This document shows, piece by piece, positions 29,055 through 44,175 of a stretch of 64,000 nucleotides of DNA. The DNA lies in assembly GCA_902574425.1 (NCBI GenBank), contig CACGNA010000001.1, forward strand, positions 62,001 to 126,000. Direction: 5' to 3'. Origin of the DNA: an uncultured Prochlorococcus sp. (lineage in GTDB: Bacteria > Cyanobacteriota > Cyanobacteriia > PCC-6307 > Cyanobiaceae). The translations under genes were made by a program, and so were the position numbers. The notes under the pieces were generated by a model. The model was not told the origin of the DNA. It was given only the letters and a program-made list of their open reading frames with translations, and did not search any database. How positions within the stretch are numbered: position 1 is the first letter of the stretch; every line of letters begins with the position of its first letter.

Positions 29055-29720
29055 ATGGTAGATTTCAAAAATGGGGAAATTAAAGTTCTTATACCTTTAA
29101 GGGGTGGTTCAAAGGGTATAAAAAGAAAAAATTTAAAATTATTAAAGAACAAACCTCTTTTCTATTGGGTAACCCAAGCAGCAATAAACGCGCAACTAGA
29201 GGTATATATATCTACTGAGGATAATGAAATTAAAAATGCGGCAAAGAAACTTTTTCCCAATGTAATCGTGCAAGATAGACCAAAGGAACTCTCAACCGAC
29301 AATGCAAGCACCGATGAAGTAATTTCGCATTTTATAAGTGAAAATAAATGTAAACACATAATGCTTCTGCAAGCGACATCACCATTAACATCTTCAGAAG
29401 ATATTATTTCATCAATAAATTTATATAAAGAAGGCAATTATAGGCCTCTAGTAAGCGTTTGTAAAAAACATGATTTCATTTGGGATAAGAAAGGATATCC
29501 AATAAATTACAATCCCTCATCAAGACCTCGGAGACAAGATTGGTCAGGAAATCTTGTTGAAAATGGAGCAATTTATTTATTTCAAGCAACTGAATTTAAA
29601 AAGAATGGATCTCGCTGTTCACCCCCTTGTACTTTATATGAAATGAATTATGAAAAATCGTATGAGACAGATACAAATCTTGACTGGTTAATAATGGAAG
29701 AAATCATAAAAAATATATGA
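29055..29720 (+). CDS. CMP-nonulosonate (acylneuraminate) cytidylyltransferase-like
   Basis: 221 residues. The nucleotide-binding N-terminus VLIPLRGGSKGIKRKNLKLLKNKPLFYWV, the LSTDNASTDEVISHFI block and MLLQATSPLTSSEDIISSINLY are those of CMP-sialate/CMP-legionaminate/CMP-pseudaminate synthetases (NeuA, LegF, PseF). The enzyme activates a 9-carbon sugar acid with CTP. The final SSRPRRQDWSGNLVENGAIYLFQ also fits. The NeuB-like synthase that would supply its substrate is encoded 1 kb away on the other strand. Confidence 0.88.
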   Translation: MVDFKNGEIKVLIPLRGGSKGIKRKNLKLLKNKPLFYWVTQAAINAQLEVYISTEDNEIKNAAKKLFPNVIVQDRPKELSTDNASTDEVISHFISENKCKHIMLLQATSPLTSSEDIISSINLYKEGNYRPLVSVCKKHDFIWDKKGYPINYNPSSRPRRQDWSGNLVENGAIYLFQATEFKKNGSRCSPPCTLYEMNYEKSYETDTNLDWLIMEEIIKNI

Positions 29721-29763: not shown

Positions 29764-30666
29764 CTAAAGCATAAGTTTTTTTGCAAATTCTCTAGTTGTA
29801 TAAGAAGGGAGATTTATTCCTTGTGAATGAAAGATCTCCTTCGCTAAGGATACCTTGTCTGGGTCATGAGGCCTATTTCTTCGATCCTCAATTTCAAGAA
29901 TATAATCCTTTTTAAAAAATTTAGATATTTCTTCTAAAATATCTTCAATGCTCGATTCAAAATTCGAACCTATAAAATAATCTTTCTTTAAATCAATTCT
30001 TTTTTTTAAAATAATATTTATTACTATATTCATATAATCTTCTGAAATACCCCAATTTCTAATCTTTTTTATAGATGCCAACTTTAACTTACCATTCTTA
30101 CTATTTTGAAAGTAATCAATAATTTTTGGTATTACAAATCTTTGATCTGAATATTTTGATAAGTGATTAAAAAAGTGCATTGATATAAAATAATTTTCGC
30201 CTTCAAAGAGACTGCTAAGTTCTTCATAAGCTGAAGCTTTACTTTTTGCATATGGACTAATAGCTTTTATTGGACTGTTATAAGAAATAGGCTGAGAGCA
30301 ATCAAAAATATAGGCAGAGGAAGCATTTAAAAAATAAATATTTTTTAACTTTAAAATACTTCTACCTATCCAATTAGCAATTTCGAAATTAGCTTTATAT
30401 GTTTCCTCCACAAATTCAAAAGACTTTCCAACTGAACTTTGACCAATTAAGTTGACAACATGACTAGGTCTAGAATCTCTAATAGTTTCAAAGATGGAGG
30501 CTTCATTTAAAAAGTTACAATAAACAAGTTTTTTACTAAAGTTTATTAATCTTTTGGGAATATCTTTTGATCTAATAACTCCCAAAAAATCAATTTTTTT
30601 TCTGGATAATAATTCAGCTAAAATTATTCCATCTTGACCACTTATTCCAAATATTAAAACTAGCAT
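29764..30666 (-). CDS. SDR-family sugar-nucleotide epimerase/dehydratase (GMD-like)
   Basis: 300 residues. The Rossmann start LVLIFGISGQDGIILAELLSRKKIDFLGVIRSKD resembles GDP-mannose 4,6-dehydratase. The catalytic triad is seen as LNASSAYIFD and ISPYAKSKASAYEEL (YxxxK). It is shorter than Gmd (300 against about 345) and diverged in the middle, so another NDP-sugar (perhaps UDP-sugar) is possible. It lies 7 nt after the NeuB-like fusion gene on the same strand, so it probably serves the nonulosonic acid route. Confidence 0.8.
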   Translation of the reverse strand: MLVLIFGISGQDGIILAELLSRKKIDFLGVIRSKDIPKRLINFSKKLVYCNFLNEASIFETIRDSRPSHVVNLIGQSSVGKSFEFVEETYKANFEIANWIGRSILKLKNIYFLNASSAYIFDCSQPISYNSPIKAISPYAKSKASAYEELSSLFEGENYFISMHFFNHLSKYSDQRFVIPKIIDYFQNSKNGKLKLASIKKIRNWGISEDYMNIVINIILKKRIDLKKDYFIGSNFESSIEDILEEISKFFKKDYILEIEDRRNRPHDPDKVSLAKEIFHSQGINLPSYTTREFAKKLML

Positions 30667-30673
30667 AGTGTAC

Positions 30674-32563
30674 TTAAGATAACTTTTCTAAATAATCAAG
30701 ATCATTAAGAAATCCATCTCCAATATTTAAATGTCCTTGCCAAGTTTCTACAATAAAAGATCTTTTTTCATTACTATTTCGCAAAAGAAATTTAAGAAAT
30801 TCGATCATTTTAGGGCTTTCTTTCAACCCCAAGCCCTCATCATCAATTCCATTGGCCCCAGCTAAATGCAAGTGCTTTGCATATGGAAGAATTTTAAATG
30901 ACCATTTATGAAAATCTTCTTTATAGAAATTACATGCCATAAATAAATGCGATATATCTAAACAAATAGGCCTATTATATTGCTTGCAGAAATTAAAAAT
31001 TTCTTTTGGATGTGCGAAAGTATTAACAAATCTTTGTCCACCCAAATACCAGGCTAAAGCTGGCAATGTTTGAGGCAAGATATTTATAAAATTATATCTT
31101 TTTTCAAATTTATTAATGAAATCATTGATAAGCTTATATTCATTTTTTCTAGAGTCATCATGATGATTCTCTGAGTATGAAGAGAAACTAGTAACACAAT
31201 TTACTTTATAAGAAAGCTTCATTTCTTGATAAAAAACTTGAATATGATCTAAAAGTTTTTGAAATTCTTTATTTGAATTCAAAGCATTTTCCTTATTTTT
31301 ACTTGTAGGATCAAAAACTAAATTTCCTTGATATATATCAGGAGCATGAAAACCAATTTTTTTTGTTTTTACAATATTCTTTAGTTCAGTAAATTTATTA
31401 TTATTAATATCCTTCATAGACATATGAATTTCTAAATAATTAGTTTTTATTCGATTAACTAATAAATTTATATCTCGATATCTGACTGGTATTCCAAAAA
31501 GATGTGCTTCTAGTTTCTTAAAAACTTTCACATTTTCTTCTTTAATAAAAAAATCTTTAGAAAGAATATTTCCTGATTTTATATTTTTTATTAGTTTTTT
31601 ATTATCAAAATCCTTAAATTGCACAGGTGTTAGTCCTTCACCAGATGGATAAAAATCAATATTTGAATAACTTACTTTATCTCCCTTTTCTAAATCCTTT
31701 TTTACTATTAAAGTCTTTGATAATGAAATTCTATTTGCTTTTTCTCCTGGTCCAATAACTCTTTGATCATTTTTCCCTCCTAAAATAACAAATGTATCCC
31801 TTAATTTCCTAACGAAACCTTTAAACTCTCCAGGTTCCAAACTTACTGCATGGTCATTACCATAAGATTCCCTAGATAATGTAATGTGTTTCTCTATGAT
31901 TTTTGAACCTATTGCTACTGCAGAAATACAAGCCAAGTCTCCAAAATCATGACTTGAATAACCAACATCAATAATGTTTTTATTTTTTAGATTATTAATA
32001 TAATTTAAATTTAAATGATGATTTGGTGCTGGATAAGCTGAGTGACAATGTAATAAAGCATAAATAATATTTTTACCTGAAAGATAATTAATTAGATTAT
32101 TTATTTCATTTTCATTTGCCATACCTGTAGAAAAAATAATTGGTTTTTTTGTCTCAATTATTTTTTCTATTAATATAGGATTATTCATATCTGCAGATGC
32201 CACTTTATATAAAATAGGATTTAATACTTCTGCGAACTCCAGTGCTTCTAAATCCCAGACAGAAAAAAAACAAGTTATTTTAATACTCTCACAGTAATTC
32301 CAGATTAATTTATAACCATCAAAATCAATAAAAGTTTTTCTTATATAATCATCTACTATTTCAGATCCAATATCTCTAGAACCATCAATATCTAGAAAAA
32401 GTTTTTTTGATCTTAATTGAAACTTAACTGCATTAAATCCTGCTTCTTTTGCTAAATAACATAATTTCTTAGCATCTGAAATTGATCCATTATGATTAAG
32501 ACCAATTTCGGCAATAATATATGGATTGCCTTCATCCCAAGGAATTCTATTCAAAACAACCAA
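30674..32563 (-). CDS. NeuB-like nonulosonic acid synthase fused to SAF and a second TIM barrel
   Basis: 629 residues, about 280 longer than a normal NeuB. Residues 1-255 are the NeuB condensing barrel: PYIIAEIGLNHNGSISDAKKL, AVKFQLRSKK, VASADMNNPILIEKI, IFSTGMANENEI, LLHCHSAYPAP, DVGYSSHDFGD, and IIEKHITLSRESYGNDHAVSLEP with the metal-ligand histidines. Residues about 285-345 are a SAF antifreeze-like domain (RISLSKTLIVKKDLEKGDKVSYSNIDFYPSGEGL). Residues 350-629 are a xylose isomerase-like TIM barrel (IHMSMKDI, KIGFHAPDIYQGNLVFDP, PICLDISHLFMACNFY, HLHLAGANGIDDEGLGL, SFIVETWQGHLN) of the sugar-phosphate isomerase/AP-endonuclease-2 family. The C-terminal part may isomerise or epimerise the substrate or product; this is inference. 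Confidence 0.88.
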   Translation of the reverse strand: MVVLNRIPWDEGNPYIIAEIGLNHNGSISDAKKLCYLAKEAGFNAVKFQLRSKKLFLDIDGSRDIGSEIVDDYIRKTFIDFDGYKLIWNYCESIKITCFFSVWDLEALEFAEVLNPILYKVASADMNNPILIEKIIETKKPIIFSTGMANENEINNLINYLSGKNIIYALLHCHSAYPAPNHHLNLNYINNLKNKNIIDVGYSSHDFGDLACISAVAIGSKIIEKHITLSRESYGNDHAVSLEPGEFKGFVRKLRDTFVILGGKNDQRVIGPGEKANRISLSKTLIVKKDLEKGDKVSYSNIDFYPSGEGLTPVQFKDFDNKKLIKNIKSGNILSKDFFIKEENVKVFKKLEAHLFGIPVRYRDINLLVNRIKTNYLEIHMSMKDINNNKFTELKNIVKTKKIGFHAPDIYQGNLVFDPTSKNKENALNSNKEFQKLLDHIQVFYQEMKLSYKVNCVTSFSSYSENHHDDSRKNEYKLINDFINKFEKRYNFINILPQTLPALAWYLGGQRFVNTFAHPKEIFNFCKQYNRPICLDISHLFMACNFYKEDFHKWSFKILPYAKHLHLAGANGIDDEGLGLKESPKMIEFLKFLLRNSNEKRSFIVETWQGHLNIGDGFLNDLDYLEKLS

Positions 32564-32643: not shown

Positions 32644-33756
32644 CTAATAATTTCGACAAATTGAATTCACTTTATCAACTATATGTTCTACAAAATCTAA
32701 AGGCATATAATCAAAGACTGGAAGAGAAATATTATGATCACAATGATATTCCGTAAGAGGTAAATCTCCATATTTGTAACCTAGATCTTTATATGCAGGC
32801 ATTAAATGAACCGGTGTCTTATAACTTACATTGGTAATAATCCCATTTTTTTCTAAATCTTTTTGAAATATATCTCTATCCTTTTTAAAATAAAATGGGA
32901 TTAAATAATATGAGCAATTCGAATTTTTTGGATGTGGAATAGGATTTAATAATTCTGAATTAATATTTTGATAATACAAATTAGCTATTTTTTTTCTATG
33001 TGCAATATTTTGATCTAATTTAGTTAATTTATAATTTAGGATTGCGGCTTGAATTTCGTCCATTCTGGAGTTATAGCCATCAACCTTAGCGATATAATCC
33101 TTTTCTATACCATAAAATCTTAATTCCTTTAGGAGATTATATTTCGATAAATTATTTGTGCAAATAATACCTGCATCACCAAAAGCTCCCAAAGATTTTG
33201 TTGGATAGAATGAAAAAGCAGAGAAATCACCAATTGAGCCAACCTTTCTACTATTTATTTTAGCTCCATGTGCTTGACTACAATCTTCAATTATTGTCAA
33301 CCCATGAGTTTTCTTATATTTTATTAATGCATCAAAATTTACTGGATAACCATAAAGATGCACAATAATAATAGCTTTAGTCCTTGCGGATATTAAGCCT
33401 GGTAATTTATCAATATCTATTAACCCATTTTTATTTACATCCACAAATATAGGTCTGGCATTAGCTTGCTTAATTGCAGAAACTGTAGGGATTGCAGTAT
33501 TAGCTACTGTTATAACCTCATCGCCCTGATCAATTCCAATAGCTTTAAGAATAAGAAATATAGCATTTGTTGCATTATCACAACCTACTGAGTATTTTGT
33601 TCCAATATATTCAGAAAAATTTTTTTCAAATTCTATTAATTGATTACCCAAAAGTAATCTGCCAGAATCAAAAACATTATTTATCAACTTTAAGTAAGTA
33701 TCTCTATTTCGCTTTAAATCATATTCGCAAGTCCATGAGGGTATTATATTTCTCAT
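32644..33756 (-). CDS. DegT/DnrJ/EryC1 sugar aminotransferase (FdtB/QdtB-like)
   Basis: 370 residues of the PLP-dependent sugar aminotransferase family. The PLP lysine is in FSFYPTKSLGAFGDAGII; IIEDCSQAHGAKINSRKVGSIGDFSAF and VHLYGYPVNFDAL are also typical, as is the GYNSRMDEIQAAIL block. The N-terminal DSGRLLLGNQLIEFEKNFSEYIGTKYSVGCDNATNAIFLILKAIG and YNSRMDE sequence resembles FdtB/QdtB enzymes that aminate C3 of dTDP-3-oxo-6-deoxyhexoses. A ketoisomerase of the matching type is encoded at 45.7 kb and rfbA/rfbB at 36-38 kb, so this function fits. A role in nonulosonic acid synthesis (LegC/PseC-type) is the alternative, given its position before the NeuB fusion. Confidence 0.88.
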   Translation of the reverse strand: MRNIIPSWTCEYDLKRNRDTYLKLINNVFDSGRLLLGNQLIEFEKNFSEYIGTKYSVGCDNATNAIFLILKAIGIDQGDEVITVANTAIPTVSAIKQANARPIFVDVNKNGLIDIDKLPGLISARTKAIIIVHLYGYPVNFDALIKYKKTHGLTIIEDCSQAHGAKINSRKVGSIGDFSAFSFYPTKSLGAFGDAGIICTNNLSKYNLLKELRFYGIEKDYIAKVDGYNSRMDEIQAAILNYKLTKLDQNIAHRKKIANLYYQNINSELLNPIPHPKNSNCSYYLIPFYFKKDRDIFQKDLEKNGIITNVSYKTPVHLMPAYKDLGYKYGDLPLTEYHCDHNISLPVFDYMPLDFVEHIVDKVNSICRNY

Positions 33757-41441: not shown

Positions 41442-42266
41442 TTATGTAAATTTACTAATCTTAGATTTTATTATTTCGGTTAAATTCCAATTCAAGAAAT
41501 AATCTTTACTACCAGGAACACTAAATGTATTTTTAACAAGATTTAATATCTTAAAACCTTTTTTATCAAAAAGGTAAATTGATTCAACAGGACTATTAAA
41601 AGTAGAATAATTTTTTTTATGTGCTTCTATATCTATTGATTTATAACAATTTAACATTTTTTGTTTTAATTTTTTATCAATAAACCATTGTGTATAAAAT
41701 TTTGGATATCTCCAACTTCTAAACCTTAATAATCTTAAAATTTTATTAGAAATACTATATTTGCATTTAGAAAAATTTAAAATTCCATAATTTCCTTGAT
41801 TTAAATTATTTCTCAAAATTGGTTTTAGTAAAGAGTTATTTAAAGGCAGACAACTGAAAAATCCAAATGAAATTTTATGTTTATATGTCCATTCAAATAA
41901 TTCTTTTGAGGCCTGCATATGATGCGGATTCATATGTTCATCGCCAAAAGGTGAGTGAGTTATCAACAAATCAATATCATTTATTTTTAACCCCAATATA
42001 GATAATGCCTCGAGAACTGTTTTATAAATTGGAGGCAAAGGATTATTTGCTTTCCTCAAAGATTTCCCTAAAATAAGCCCCTTTTTACAATTAGAATATT
42101 TTATTGCTTTATTAAACTCTTTTACTCTGGAAGAACTACTATCATTACCAGATAAACAAATAACAAAAACATTTAAAAAAGAAGTTTTGCTTAATAAATT
42201 CAATAATCCACCAATCCATAAAGATTCATCATCAGGATGACAAACTATAAAAAAAATATTTTTCAT
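41442..42266 (-). CDS. PIG-L/LmbE-family N-deacetylase
   Basis: 274 residues. The zinc site appears as FFIVCHPDDESLWIGGLLNLL (HPDDE motif, near the N-terminus) and THSPFGDEHMNPHHMQASKELFEW, where HxxH completes the metal ligands. The family removes N-acetyl groups from GlcNAc-containing glycans or glycolipids (GlcNAc-PI, mycothiol, teicoplanin-type substrates). In this locus it could de-N-acetylate a lipid-linked or nucleotide-linked amino sugar. The start follows directly on the stop of the methyltransferase-like gene, so the two are coupled. Confidence 0.88.
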   Translation of the reverse strand: MKNIFFIVCHPDDESLWIGGLLNLLSKTSFLNVFVICLSGNDSSSSRVKEFNKAIKYSNCKKGLILGKSLRKANNPLPPIYKTVLEALSILGLKINDIDLLITHSPFGDEHMNPHHMQASKELFEWTYKHKISFGFFSCLPLNNSLLKPILRNNLNQGNYGILNFSKCKYSISNKILRLLRFRSWRYPKFYTQWFIDKKLKQKMLNCYKSIDIEAHKKNYSTFNSPVESIYLFDKKGFKILNLVKNTFSVPGSKDYFLNWNLTEIIKSKISKFT

Positions 42267-43055
42267 TTATTTCTCTAATTGTATAGGCTCATATGGTATT
42301 TTATTATTTGTTTTTCTACAGCCAAAAGTAAGAATTGAATTGTTAGGTATATATTCTGGTTCTGGTTGTTTAAGTTGATTACCAAAATATATTTTTTGAA
42401 ATTTATTTTCTTTTAAAAATATGTTTCCAGGATTTAGAGAATAAAAAGTATTTATTTTAAAAAAATCTAACACCTTAAGAATCTCTAAAATCCTATAAAA
42501 AATATATACAAATTTTGATATTCTAAATTTTGTTCTATAAGCTTCATGTAAGAAAATACAATTATTAGTTATTAAATAAAAATCTTGCAATAACTTGGGA
42601 TGAATATTATAGTATCCTCTCCCAAAATATCCTGACAAAGCTGTTATGTGAAAAATTAATGCATCCTTTTTTGCCATTTTATAAATATTTTTTAAAACTT
42701 CTCCTGGGTTGAAGCACCAAAAAAGAACCCCCGCATCAATTATAAAATCATATTTACTTATCAATTGCTTTGCTAATTTTCTTTGTAGATCAATCTTTAA
42801 AGTTGCTTTACCATTTAAATCTAGTGTTTCAACTTTTTTGAATCCTAAAAACTTTCCAAAAGTAAATGCATTCAATTCTTCTGGTAATTTTGAAAATTTA
42901 TAATTTAGCTTTTTGCATATTTTAATTAAGCCTTTTTCATCAAAATAAATTTTTGCATCGCCAAGTATAAGCAGACAATTTTTTGAGATATTTCTTTCTT
43001 TCTTTATTAAAGAAATTATGGAATAAGCATCTTGTATTTCTATGCCCACTTTCAA
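42267..43055 (-). CDS. Methyltransferase-like protein in the PIG-L operon
   Basis: 262 residues. KYDFIIDAGVLFWCFNPGEVLKNIYKMAKKDALIFHITALSGYFGRGYYNIHPKLLQDFY (about 100-160) resembles the second half of a class I SAM methyltransferase, where an acidic strand is followed by a helix and a strand after D-A-L-I. A clear motif I is not obvious (KNCLLILGDAKIY is a candidate), so activity is uncertain. It precedes the deacetylase gene with no gap and is divergent from the PhyH gene across 223 nt of very AT-rich DNA. Confidence 0.55.
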   Translation of the reverse strand: MKVGIEIQDAYSIISLIKKERNISKNCLLILGDAKIYFDEKGLIKICKKLNYKFSKLPEELNAFTFGKFLGFKKVETLDLNGKATLKIDLQRKLAKQLISKYDFIIDAGVLFWCFNPGEVLKNIYKMAKKDALIFHITALSGYFGRGYYNIHPKLLQDFYLITNNCIFLHEAYRTKFRISKFVYIFYRILEILKVLDFFKINTFYSLNPGNIFLKENKFQKIYFGNQLKQPEPEYIPNNSILTFGCRKTNNKIPYEPIQLEK

Positions 43056-43278
43056 AAATATTTAATATAAATATATCATAAAATTGTATTTATATATAAT
43101 AAAAAAAGTTATAAATATTTTTCATATAAATTATTTAACTAAGTTATTAATAATGTAAATAAAAATAATTATTTTTTTCTAAATTATTTTTACAAAGATA
43201 GTTTTAAATTCATAAAAGTTAAAATATACTTGCTAACTTTAAAATAGTTAAATCAAATTAATAAATTTTAAAGAATAG

Positions 43279-44175
43279 ATGAATTTTAATACTTTAAAAA
43301 AAAGAATAAAAAAATTATTTTTAAAAATCATTAAAAAAATTCTTAAGTTATTGCATAGTATTATTTCAAAAAATTTGATTAATGAATATTTAACCAAAAT
43401 TGAATATATTGAATTCTTTATGGAAAGGAAGGACTATAAAACATCTTTTATTTCTTTTCATAGTGATACTGAATGGATTCTGGAGAAGCTTAATAAAGAT
43501 GGATATTGCAAAATAAAAAACTTTTGGTCTGAAGATGAATGTATAAATGGAATGAAATCTATTGATGATTTAATAAGAGATTTTCCTGAATATGTAAGAT
43601 CTGAGAATAAATCTGATCAAAGAGTTTATGGTGCAGAAAAAATTTCTCGAAATATTAATGATTTTAGTAAAAATAAATTATTAATTTCAGTGGCTAAAAA
43701 CTACAACAGAAAAGAAACAAAACTAGGTTTTACATTAGCAGCTAAAATGCCTGCAAAAAAACACAATAAAGGTTCTGGTGAGGGGTGGCATAGAGATGCA
43801 TTTTTTAGACAATTTAAAACTTTACTTTATTTAAGCGATGTAAGCAAAGATAATGGTCCCTTTGAATTAATACTAAATTCACAAAATTATCAGAACTTAA
43901 TTGAAGACATGAGGGAGGCAAATCTAGGTCATAAGCAATTCAGATTAACAGAATCGCAAATAAATAAAATACTAATTAATGAGCCTCAAAGAAAAAAAAC
44001 AATCTTAGGTAAAATGGGGACTTTAATACTTGTAGATACAAGTACTTTACATAGAGGATCTCCTATAAAAAATGGAATAAGATATGCACTTACAAATTAT
44101 TACTATACTCTAAACCAGATTGACGACGCACTTTATAAGAAATTTAATGTAATTCCCTTTGTTAAGATTAAATAA
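43279..44175 (+). CDS. PhyH-family Fe(II)/2-oxoglutarate dioxygenase
   Basis: 298 residues. The non-haem iron facial triad is seen in SGEGWHRDAFFRQFKTLLYLSDVSKDNGPFELI (HxD) and, after about 90 residues, STLHRGSPIKNGIRYALTNYYY (distal His and the 2-oxoglutarate-binding Arg). The N-terminal 40 residues are a basic helix. Members hydroxylate small molecules or glycan/lipid precursors. First gene of the nine-gene plus-strand polysaccharide run, 9 nt before the next gene, so a tailoring role in the glycan is a reasonable guess. Confidence 0.87.
   Translation: MNFNTLKKRIKKLFLKIIKKILKLLHSIISKNLINEYLTKIEYIEFFMERKDYKTSFISFHSDTEWILEKLNKDGYCKIKNFWSEDECINGMKSIDDLIRDFPEYVRSENKSDQRVYGAEKISRNINDFSKNKLLISVAKNYNRKETKLGFTLAAKMPAKKHNKGSGEGWHRDAFFRQFKTLLYLSDVSKDNGPFELILNSQNYQNLIEDMREANLGHKQFRLTESQINKILINEPQRKKTILGKMGTLILVDTSTLHRGSPIKNGIRYALTNYYYTLNQIDDALYKKFNVIPFVKIK

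Follow-up and report, generated by a model that had tools for sequence, protein, structure and literature searches.

A predicted nonulosonic acid synthase fused to a xylose isomerase-like barrel in Prochlorococcus and in relatives from at least 12 phyla: a missing arginine hints at an unusual surface sugarThe window (the whole stretch of DNA that was analysed, 64,000 nucleotides from an uncultured Prochlorococcus sp.) contains an ORF in which a NeuB synthase domain, a SAF domain and a xylose isomerase-like barrel follow one another in a single frame. The ORF, its domains and its neighbours are as follows.

30674 to 32563, minus strand: fusion ORF NeuB–SAF–barrel, 629 aa, without a CBS pair (ORF call, Pfam, AlphaFold2)
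31772 to 32521, minus strand: NeuB synthase domain, residues about 15–264 (Pfam NeuB, PDB alignments, residue table)
31553 to 31711, minus strand: SAF/antifreeze-like domain, residues 285–337 (Pfam, PDB alignment, residue alignments)
30677 to 31501, minus strand: xylose isomerase-like TIM barrel, residues about 355–629 (Pfam, profile, AlphaFold2, Foldseek, residue table)
29764 to 30666, minus strand: GMD-like SDR, 300 aa, 7 bp after the fusion (Pfam, motif alignment)
29055 to 29720, plus strand: NeuA/PseF-type cytidylyltransferase, 221 aa (Pfam, NCBIfam, comparison with locus L131)
32644 to 33756, minus strand: DegT/PseC-like sugar aminotransferase, 370 aa (Pfam, NCBIfam)

The fusion is genuine: NeuB–SAF and the barrel are encoded by one ORF. 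An earlier, sequence-only reading of this DNA had described this architecture, which Pfam and AlphaFold2 confirm, and had placed an aminotransferase and a GMD-like SDR on either side, as is the case; the NeuA-type gene was not named there. The ORF begins with TTG, and no ATG occurs in the frame, which stays open as far back as 32602, so the exact start and the first residues are uncertain. Despite this, the NeuB domain is complete. Pfam NeuB (PF03102) matches residues 37–264 with an E value of 2.4e-58 (197.9 bits against a curated cut-off of 22.1), and this score, together with the catalytic Glu and Lys and the metal-binding His, places the protein in the NeuB family. The Pfam match to SAF (residues 285–337) is weak (E 0.026). 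Residues 385–626 match the AP_endonuc_2/xylose isomerase-like family (PF01261; E 1.3e-6) with a score that, for this protein alone, is 2.4 bits short of the curated cut-off; the same family is matched by 52/52 aligned homologues (best E 2.3e-26) and the Foldseek results agree on the fold. AlphaFold2 predicts two confident domains (barrel alone, pLDDT 88 and pTM 0.89; full length, pLDDT 86). Judged by profile and predicted fold, the barrel is a bona fide xylose isomerase-like domain, and we regard the assignment of family and architecture as close to certain.

A barrel profile was scanned against one genome per species of 84,980, and the best 80 of the 161 relatives were examined. The barrel is in frame with NeuB in all 80 loci; one is interrupted inside NeuB by the start of its contig, and four are overlain by longer antisense ORFs and are still fused. 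The fusion is also present in 8 genomes among 200 drawn from the genus of the window. Because the fusion is in frame in 80 independent loci and in these 8 further genomes, it is not an assembly join, and a chimera or read-through artefact is ruled out. Nearly all of the best 80 of 161 relatives are about 750 aa long and carry an N-terminal CBS pair (CBS–NeuB–SAF–barrel). According to record titles and taxonomy, these carriers span at least 12 phyla (Cyanobacteriota, Pseudomonadota, Thermodesulfobacteriota, Campylobacterota, Bacillota, Actinomycetota, Bacteroidota, Chloroflexota, Lentisphaerota, Peregrinibacteriota, SAR324 and KSB1). In searches of 194 and 251 cyanobacterial genomes all good barrel matches lay in frames of 613–893 aa, and no stand-alone barrel was found in these searches or among the 80 loci. 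The sole short match (L015, E 4e-4) was spurious. Since the barrel is always in frame with NeuB and no separate copy was found, this suggests that the barrel serves the synthase.

The rarity implied by the sequence-only reading is therefore wrong; the fusion is widespread and had already been noted in Leptospira (PMC3438082). In Leptospira interrogans (NP_711794 / YP_002104) an N-terminal NulO (nonulosonic acid) synthase is followed by a C-terminal domain described as homologous to phosphodiester-cleaving endonucleases, and the fused synthase is listed in a cluster with an aminotransferase and CMP-NulO synthetases; in that 2012 study the tail was presumed to be a phosphatase, a role inferred from sequence (PMC3438082). 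Taking the homology of the tail from this description only, the Leptospira fusion appears to be of the same type as the window family, whereas in the window form there is no CBS pair and a GMD-like SDR is present. Neither an enzyme assay nor a known product of such a fusion was found in the literature searched, nor anything relevant on cyanobacterial NulO or Kdn. That a NulO synthase can carry an endonuclease-like tail is thus already known, in a family that is uncharacterised. The new findings are how widely and how constantly the two parts are fused, how the Arg314 position separates fused from stand-alone synthases, the Gln that never varies, and a clade that has no CBS pair but has an SDR.

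The catalytic and metal-binding residues of meningococcal NeuB (NmNeuB) are retained in the window protein (E19, K47, K120, Y177, H205, E224 and H226). By sequence, then, the site of the NeuB half is intact, and condensation of PEP with an aldose is to be expected. In NmNeuB, Arg314 of the SAF domain hydrogen-bonds to the N-acetyl group of ManNAc and so positions it, and the R314A enzyme is inactive (PMC6795526, citing Joseph 2013). This position was fixed by PDB alignments, including two chains that differ from the wild type only there (Ala or Lys), and it is Pro306 in the window protein. In a joint alignment, the stand-alone synthases have Arg (23) or Lys (1) at this position (n=24) whereas the fusions have Ser (16), Pro (2) or Tyr (1) (n=19). 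A larger set of 43 fusions has Ser in 39, Gly in 2, Pro in 1 and Cys in 1. Stand-alone NeuB/PseI (1xuu, 8h2c) share the NeuB and SAF domains and the catalytic Glu, Lys, Tyr and His with the fusions, but have no second barrel and have Arg where the fusions have Ser, Pro, Tyr, Gly or Cys. In these alignments, synthases that have the barrel are those that have lost the residue anchoring the acetamido group.

As there is no equivalent of Arg314, we infer that binding of the acceptor does not depend on an N-acetyl group at C2. An acceptor bound differently from ManNAc seems probable on this evidence, and it may lack the C2 acetamido group, which would give a Kdn-type acid. The absence of Arg314 shows different binding only; it does not give the identity of the substrate and is no proof of Kdn. 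Animal synthases are likewise not known to have an Arg at this position, and they use 6-phosphates. The scores against the NCBIfam models are consistent with an unusual synthase: NeuB_NnaB (TIGR03569) gives 236 of 400 bits, with Pro306 in place of Arg, and PseI (TIGR03586) gives 214 of 340 bits. The variant nonulosonic acid put forward in the sequence-only reading is thus supported, but on other grounds than those first given, namely that the fusions have no equivalent of Arg314.

By profile, the only significant solved relative of the barrel is MJ1311 (3wqo), which is D-tagatose-3-epimerase-like (E 1.5e-9), and the Foldseek neighbours are MbnB (best), MJ1311, UlaE, and rhamnose and xylose isomerases. 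Membership of the MNIO/MbnB group (DUF692) was considered and rejected: although MbnB is the top Foldseek hit, no member matches any MNIO Pfam at E≤1. The barrel shares the fold of the PF01261 isomerases and epimerases (MJ1311, 3wqo; UlaE, 3cqj) and, on strands 5, 6 and 8, still has the Asp, His and Glu that belong to the superfamily metal site; in the window protein, Asp536, His539, His566 and Glu606 align with the remaining metal ligands. The metal ligands are therefore not all absent, a loss that would have refuted the sequence-only reading. The barrel differs from these enzymes in being fused to NeuB and in having Gln in place of the strand-4 Glu. The LENMPNF motif of MJ1311 aligns with PQTMPPF in the barrel family, and this Gln (Gln498 of the window protein, placed by the predicted model where strand 4 ends) is invariant in all 52–55 aligned sequences. 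The two glutamates of ketose 3-epimerases and sugar isomerases are thus not both present, though the strand-8 Glu (Glu265 in barrel numbering) is retained. There are 26 invariant positions in a 52-member alignment, including Asp195, His198, Glu235 and Glu265. His380 and His406 (His39 and His65 in barrel numbering), where strands 2 and 3 end, likewise do not vary. A GEG loop that is present in nearly all other members is lost in the window and L131 barrels. Taken together, these residues look like an active site under strong constraint, yet not like that of a standard two-glutamate epimerase. An isomerising or epimerising action of the barrel on the substrate, as proposed in the sequence-only reading, is possible but has become less likely, because Gln takes the place of the first superfamily glutamate of the two in every aligned sequence.

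The same residues can be read as those of a phosphatase. The synthase would then use a 6-phosphosugar, as animals do, and the barrel would strip the 9-phosphate from the product. This is the role proposed for the Leptospira fusion (PMC3438082), and phosphodiesterases such as endonuclease IV and CbiR share the barrel superfamily (PMC7733943). CbiR, a cobamide phosphodiesterase, is a weak NCBIfam match to the fusion (E 0.02), the conserved His39 and His65 alongside the Asp, His and Glu recall the trinuclear site of endonuclease IV, and a phosphorylated, differently held acceptor would suit the absence of Arg314. Escherichia coli Nfo and UlaE align with the barrel at DxxH, at HxxDA/HVKD and at the last Glu, in single-sequence comparisons of low HHalign probability that rest on these motifs. 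However, sugar isomerases or epimerases, not phosphatases, make up most of the fold matches and include the nearest solved sequence, and with Gln on strand 4 the bridging Glu of endonuclease IV, whose other ligands are only partly comparable, would be lost as well. Additionally, there is no DNA or cobamide context, and a sugar kinase is no regular neighbour of the fusion (there is one CBS-GHMP kinase, beside L130). We therefore consider a phosphatase rather unlikely.

A non-catalytic barrel, acting as a sugar-binding, allosteric or oligomerising domain of the synthase in the way of the CBS pair in most members, would account for the Glu-to-Gln change at a catalytic position in all barrel sequences, for the missing GEG loop of the window clade and for the fact that the barrel is never found apart from NeuB. 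The 26 invariant positions, kept across at least 12 phyla, are instead the pattern of an active site under selection, and we think such a passive role distinctly unlikely.

The regular partner of the fusion is a NeuA-type cytidylyltransferase, which is present in 52/80 loci, usually adjoining, and lies no more than three genes away in 41/73 CBS-type loci. Other neighbours are tailoring and export genes, for example a TylF methyltransferase, DHDPS-like and PhyH genes. The loci of filamentous cyanobacteria have Wzm/Wzt-type ABC transporters, and those of marine Synechococcus have sulfotransferases and DUF6716 glycosyltransferases. The latter genes flank the CBS-type fusion in L041, L046, L050, L055 and similar Synechococcus/Cyanobium loci, which suggests a sulfated NulO-containing glycan.

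The window SDR retains GxxGQDG and YxxxK, but the catalytic Glu of GMD is missing (SSAY for STSE). The SDR at L131 also has SSAY, with Tyr and Lys retained. Since SSAY replaces STSE, 4,6-dehydratase activity is unlikely, and the GDP-mannose 4,6-dehydratase model gives only 74.8 of 415 bits. Among 95 neighbour representatives of 340–430 aa, DegT occurs in 3, and the 25 commonest families do not include PF02350 (NeuC/LegG type). In agreement with the sequence-only reading, which saw no LegG-type gene, a search of the 65%-complete window genome gave no PF02350. It is also absent from G360, a 99%-complete congener with a CBS-less fusion, and is present in the 23 other carrier genomes of the 24 tallied, mostly as one copy at about 350–370 bits. 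This single copy is probably a housekeeping WecB-type epimerase, so the tally is mostly uninformative and G360 alone is telling. PF07221 (AGE) was found in 1/6 carriers.

These neighbours bear on whether the window protein is simply an ordinary Neu5Ac, Leg or Pse synthase with a tail of little import, for which the aminotransferase and SDR make a standard amino-sugar precursor. Every other NeuB catalytic residue is present, and a DegT aminotransferase and an SDR do adjoin the fusion. Against this, fused and stand-alone synthases split cleanly at the Arg314 position, the NeuB_NnaB and PseI scores are far below their cut-offs, the SDR lacks the dehydratase Glu, and no LegG/NeuC-type gene was found in the window genome or G360. 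This makes an ordinary synthase very improbable.

In a quick tree, in which long branches were flagged, L131 (from G297, a different genus of the family; 54% identity) and L169 (from G577, the genus of the window) fall together with the window protein. Four further CBS-less picocyanobacterial fusions (L134, L170, L171 and L172) lie, like the window group, outside the CBS-type family. The CBS-less fusions of L056 (Bacteroidia), L130 and the viral contigs L126 and L127 nest inside it, so absence of CBS arose more than once. An SDR with the GQDG motif adjoins the fusion in all seven picocyanobacterial CBS-less members (the motif is degenerate in L169) and in L056; an SDR of this type is found in 1/73 CBS-type loci (L030). 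The order fusion–SDR–NeuA is common to L131 and the window (54, 39 and 50% identity, respectively), and L131 has an aminotransferase related to that of the window about 5 kb from the fusion.

At L130, a CBS-GHMP sugar kinase (L130:2941-4305, G329) lies directly upstream of the CBS-less fusion, so that the kinase seems to be where the CBS module has gone; genes resembling GmhA, GmhB and a sugar nucleotidyltransferase are close by. The viral contigs with CBS-less NeuB–barrel fusions are L126 (G432) and L127–L129 (G433–G435). Viral ORFs resembling ribonucleotide reductase, replicative helicase and PHP-type polymerase genes were seen (L176–L178). A search of the viral contigs for a T4-type capsid gave no match, and its positive controls gave none either. 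L126 also carries a NeuA-like gene and PIG-L deacetylase, PhyH and aminotransferase genes that resemble genes of the window.

Our best explanation of these data is that the fusion is a bifunctional NulO synthase in which the barrel handles the acceptor sugar or the product, possibly with a Kdn-type acid as the result. We hold this as a whole to be quite possible, if short of probable. The barrel would bind a metal and a sugar and act on the acceptor before condensation (an aldose/ketose or C2 interconversion), a step that we put forward tentatively. The intact NeuB site would then condense PEP with an acceptor not bound like ManNAc, perhaps without a C2 acetamido group, and NeuA would activate the product for a surface glycan. 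The GMD-like SDR of the window clade, perhaps together with the aminotransferase, would tailor the sugar, and these two genes probably add clade-specific steps. We prefer a barrel that prepares the acceptor to a phosphatase or a non-catalytic domain, and such a barrel would account for the lack of an accompanying hydrolysing 2-epimerase. Several points count against it: the aminotransferase and SDR of the window clade fit an amino sugar better than Kdn, the strand-4 Gln replaces a Glu that in two-glutamate epimerases is both a metal ligand and a catalytic residue, the window barrel has lost the GEG loop, and PF02350 is present elsewhere in most carrier genomes. A wider conjecture, which is unlikely to hold in full, is that a widely distributed two-gene module of fused synthase–isomerase and NeuA makes a NulO without a 5-acetamido group straight from sugars of central metabolism, the barrel generating the acceptor within one polypeptide, with a CBS-less form in picocyanobacteria whose dedicated SDR yields yet another variant and with large phages carrying the module to modify glycans.

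The type of NulO is usually predicted from NeuB-family genes. If a branch that spans at least 12 phyla, including marine picocyanobacteria, and also phages uses another acceptor, many annotated 'sialic acid synthases' are misnamed. An acidic sugar that has gone unrecognised would then be common on the surfaces of marine bacteria and may affect interactions with phages and grazers. The prediction of a different acceptor rests on one residue and one domain, and the missing Arg hints at an unusual surface sugar.

Finally, two other regions of the window genome contain related genes. A PIG-L deacetylase, a putative methyltransferase and a PhyH-like gene lie 9 kb from the fusion (window 41442–44175) and are possibly part of the same sugar pathway; their relatives follow the fusion in the phage locus L126 (33, 34 and 26% identity). 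A second, stand-alone NeuB is encoded beside a DegT aminotransferase in the same genome (G000:C28:8516-9226, L001). It has Arg at the 314 position and probably belongs to a separate, conventional NulO pathway.
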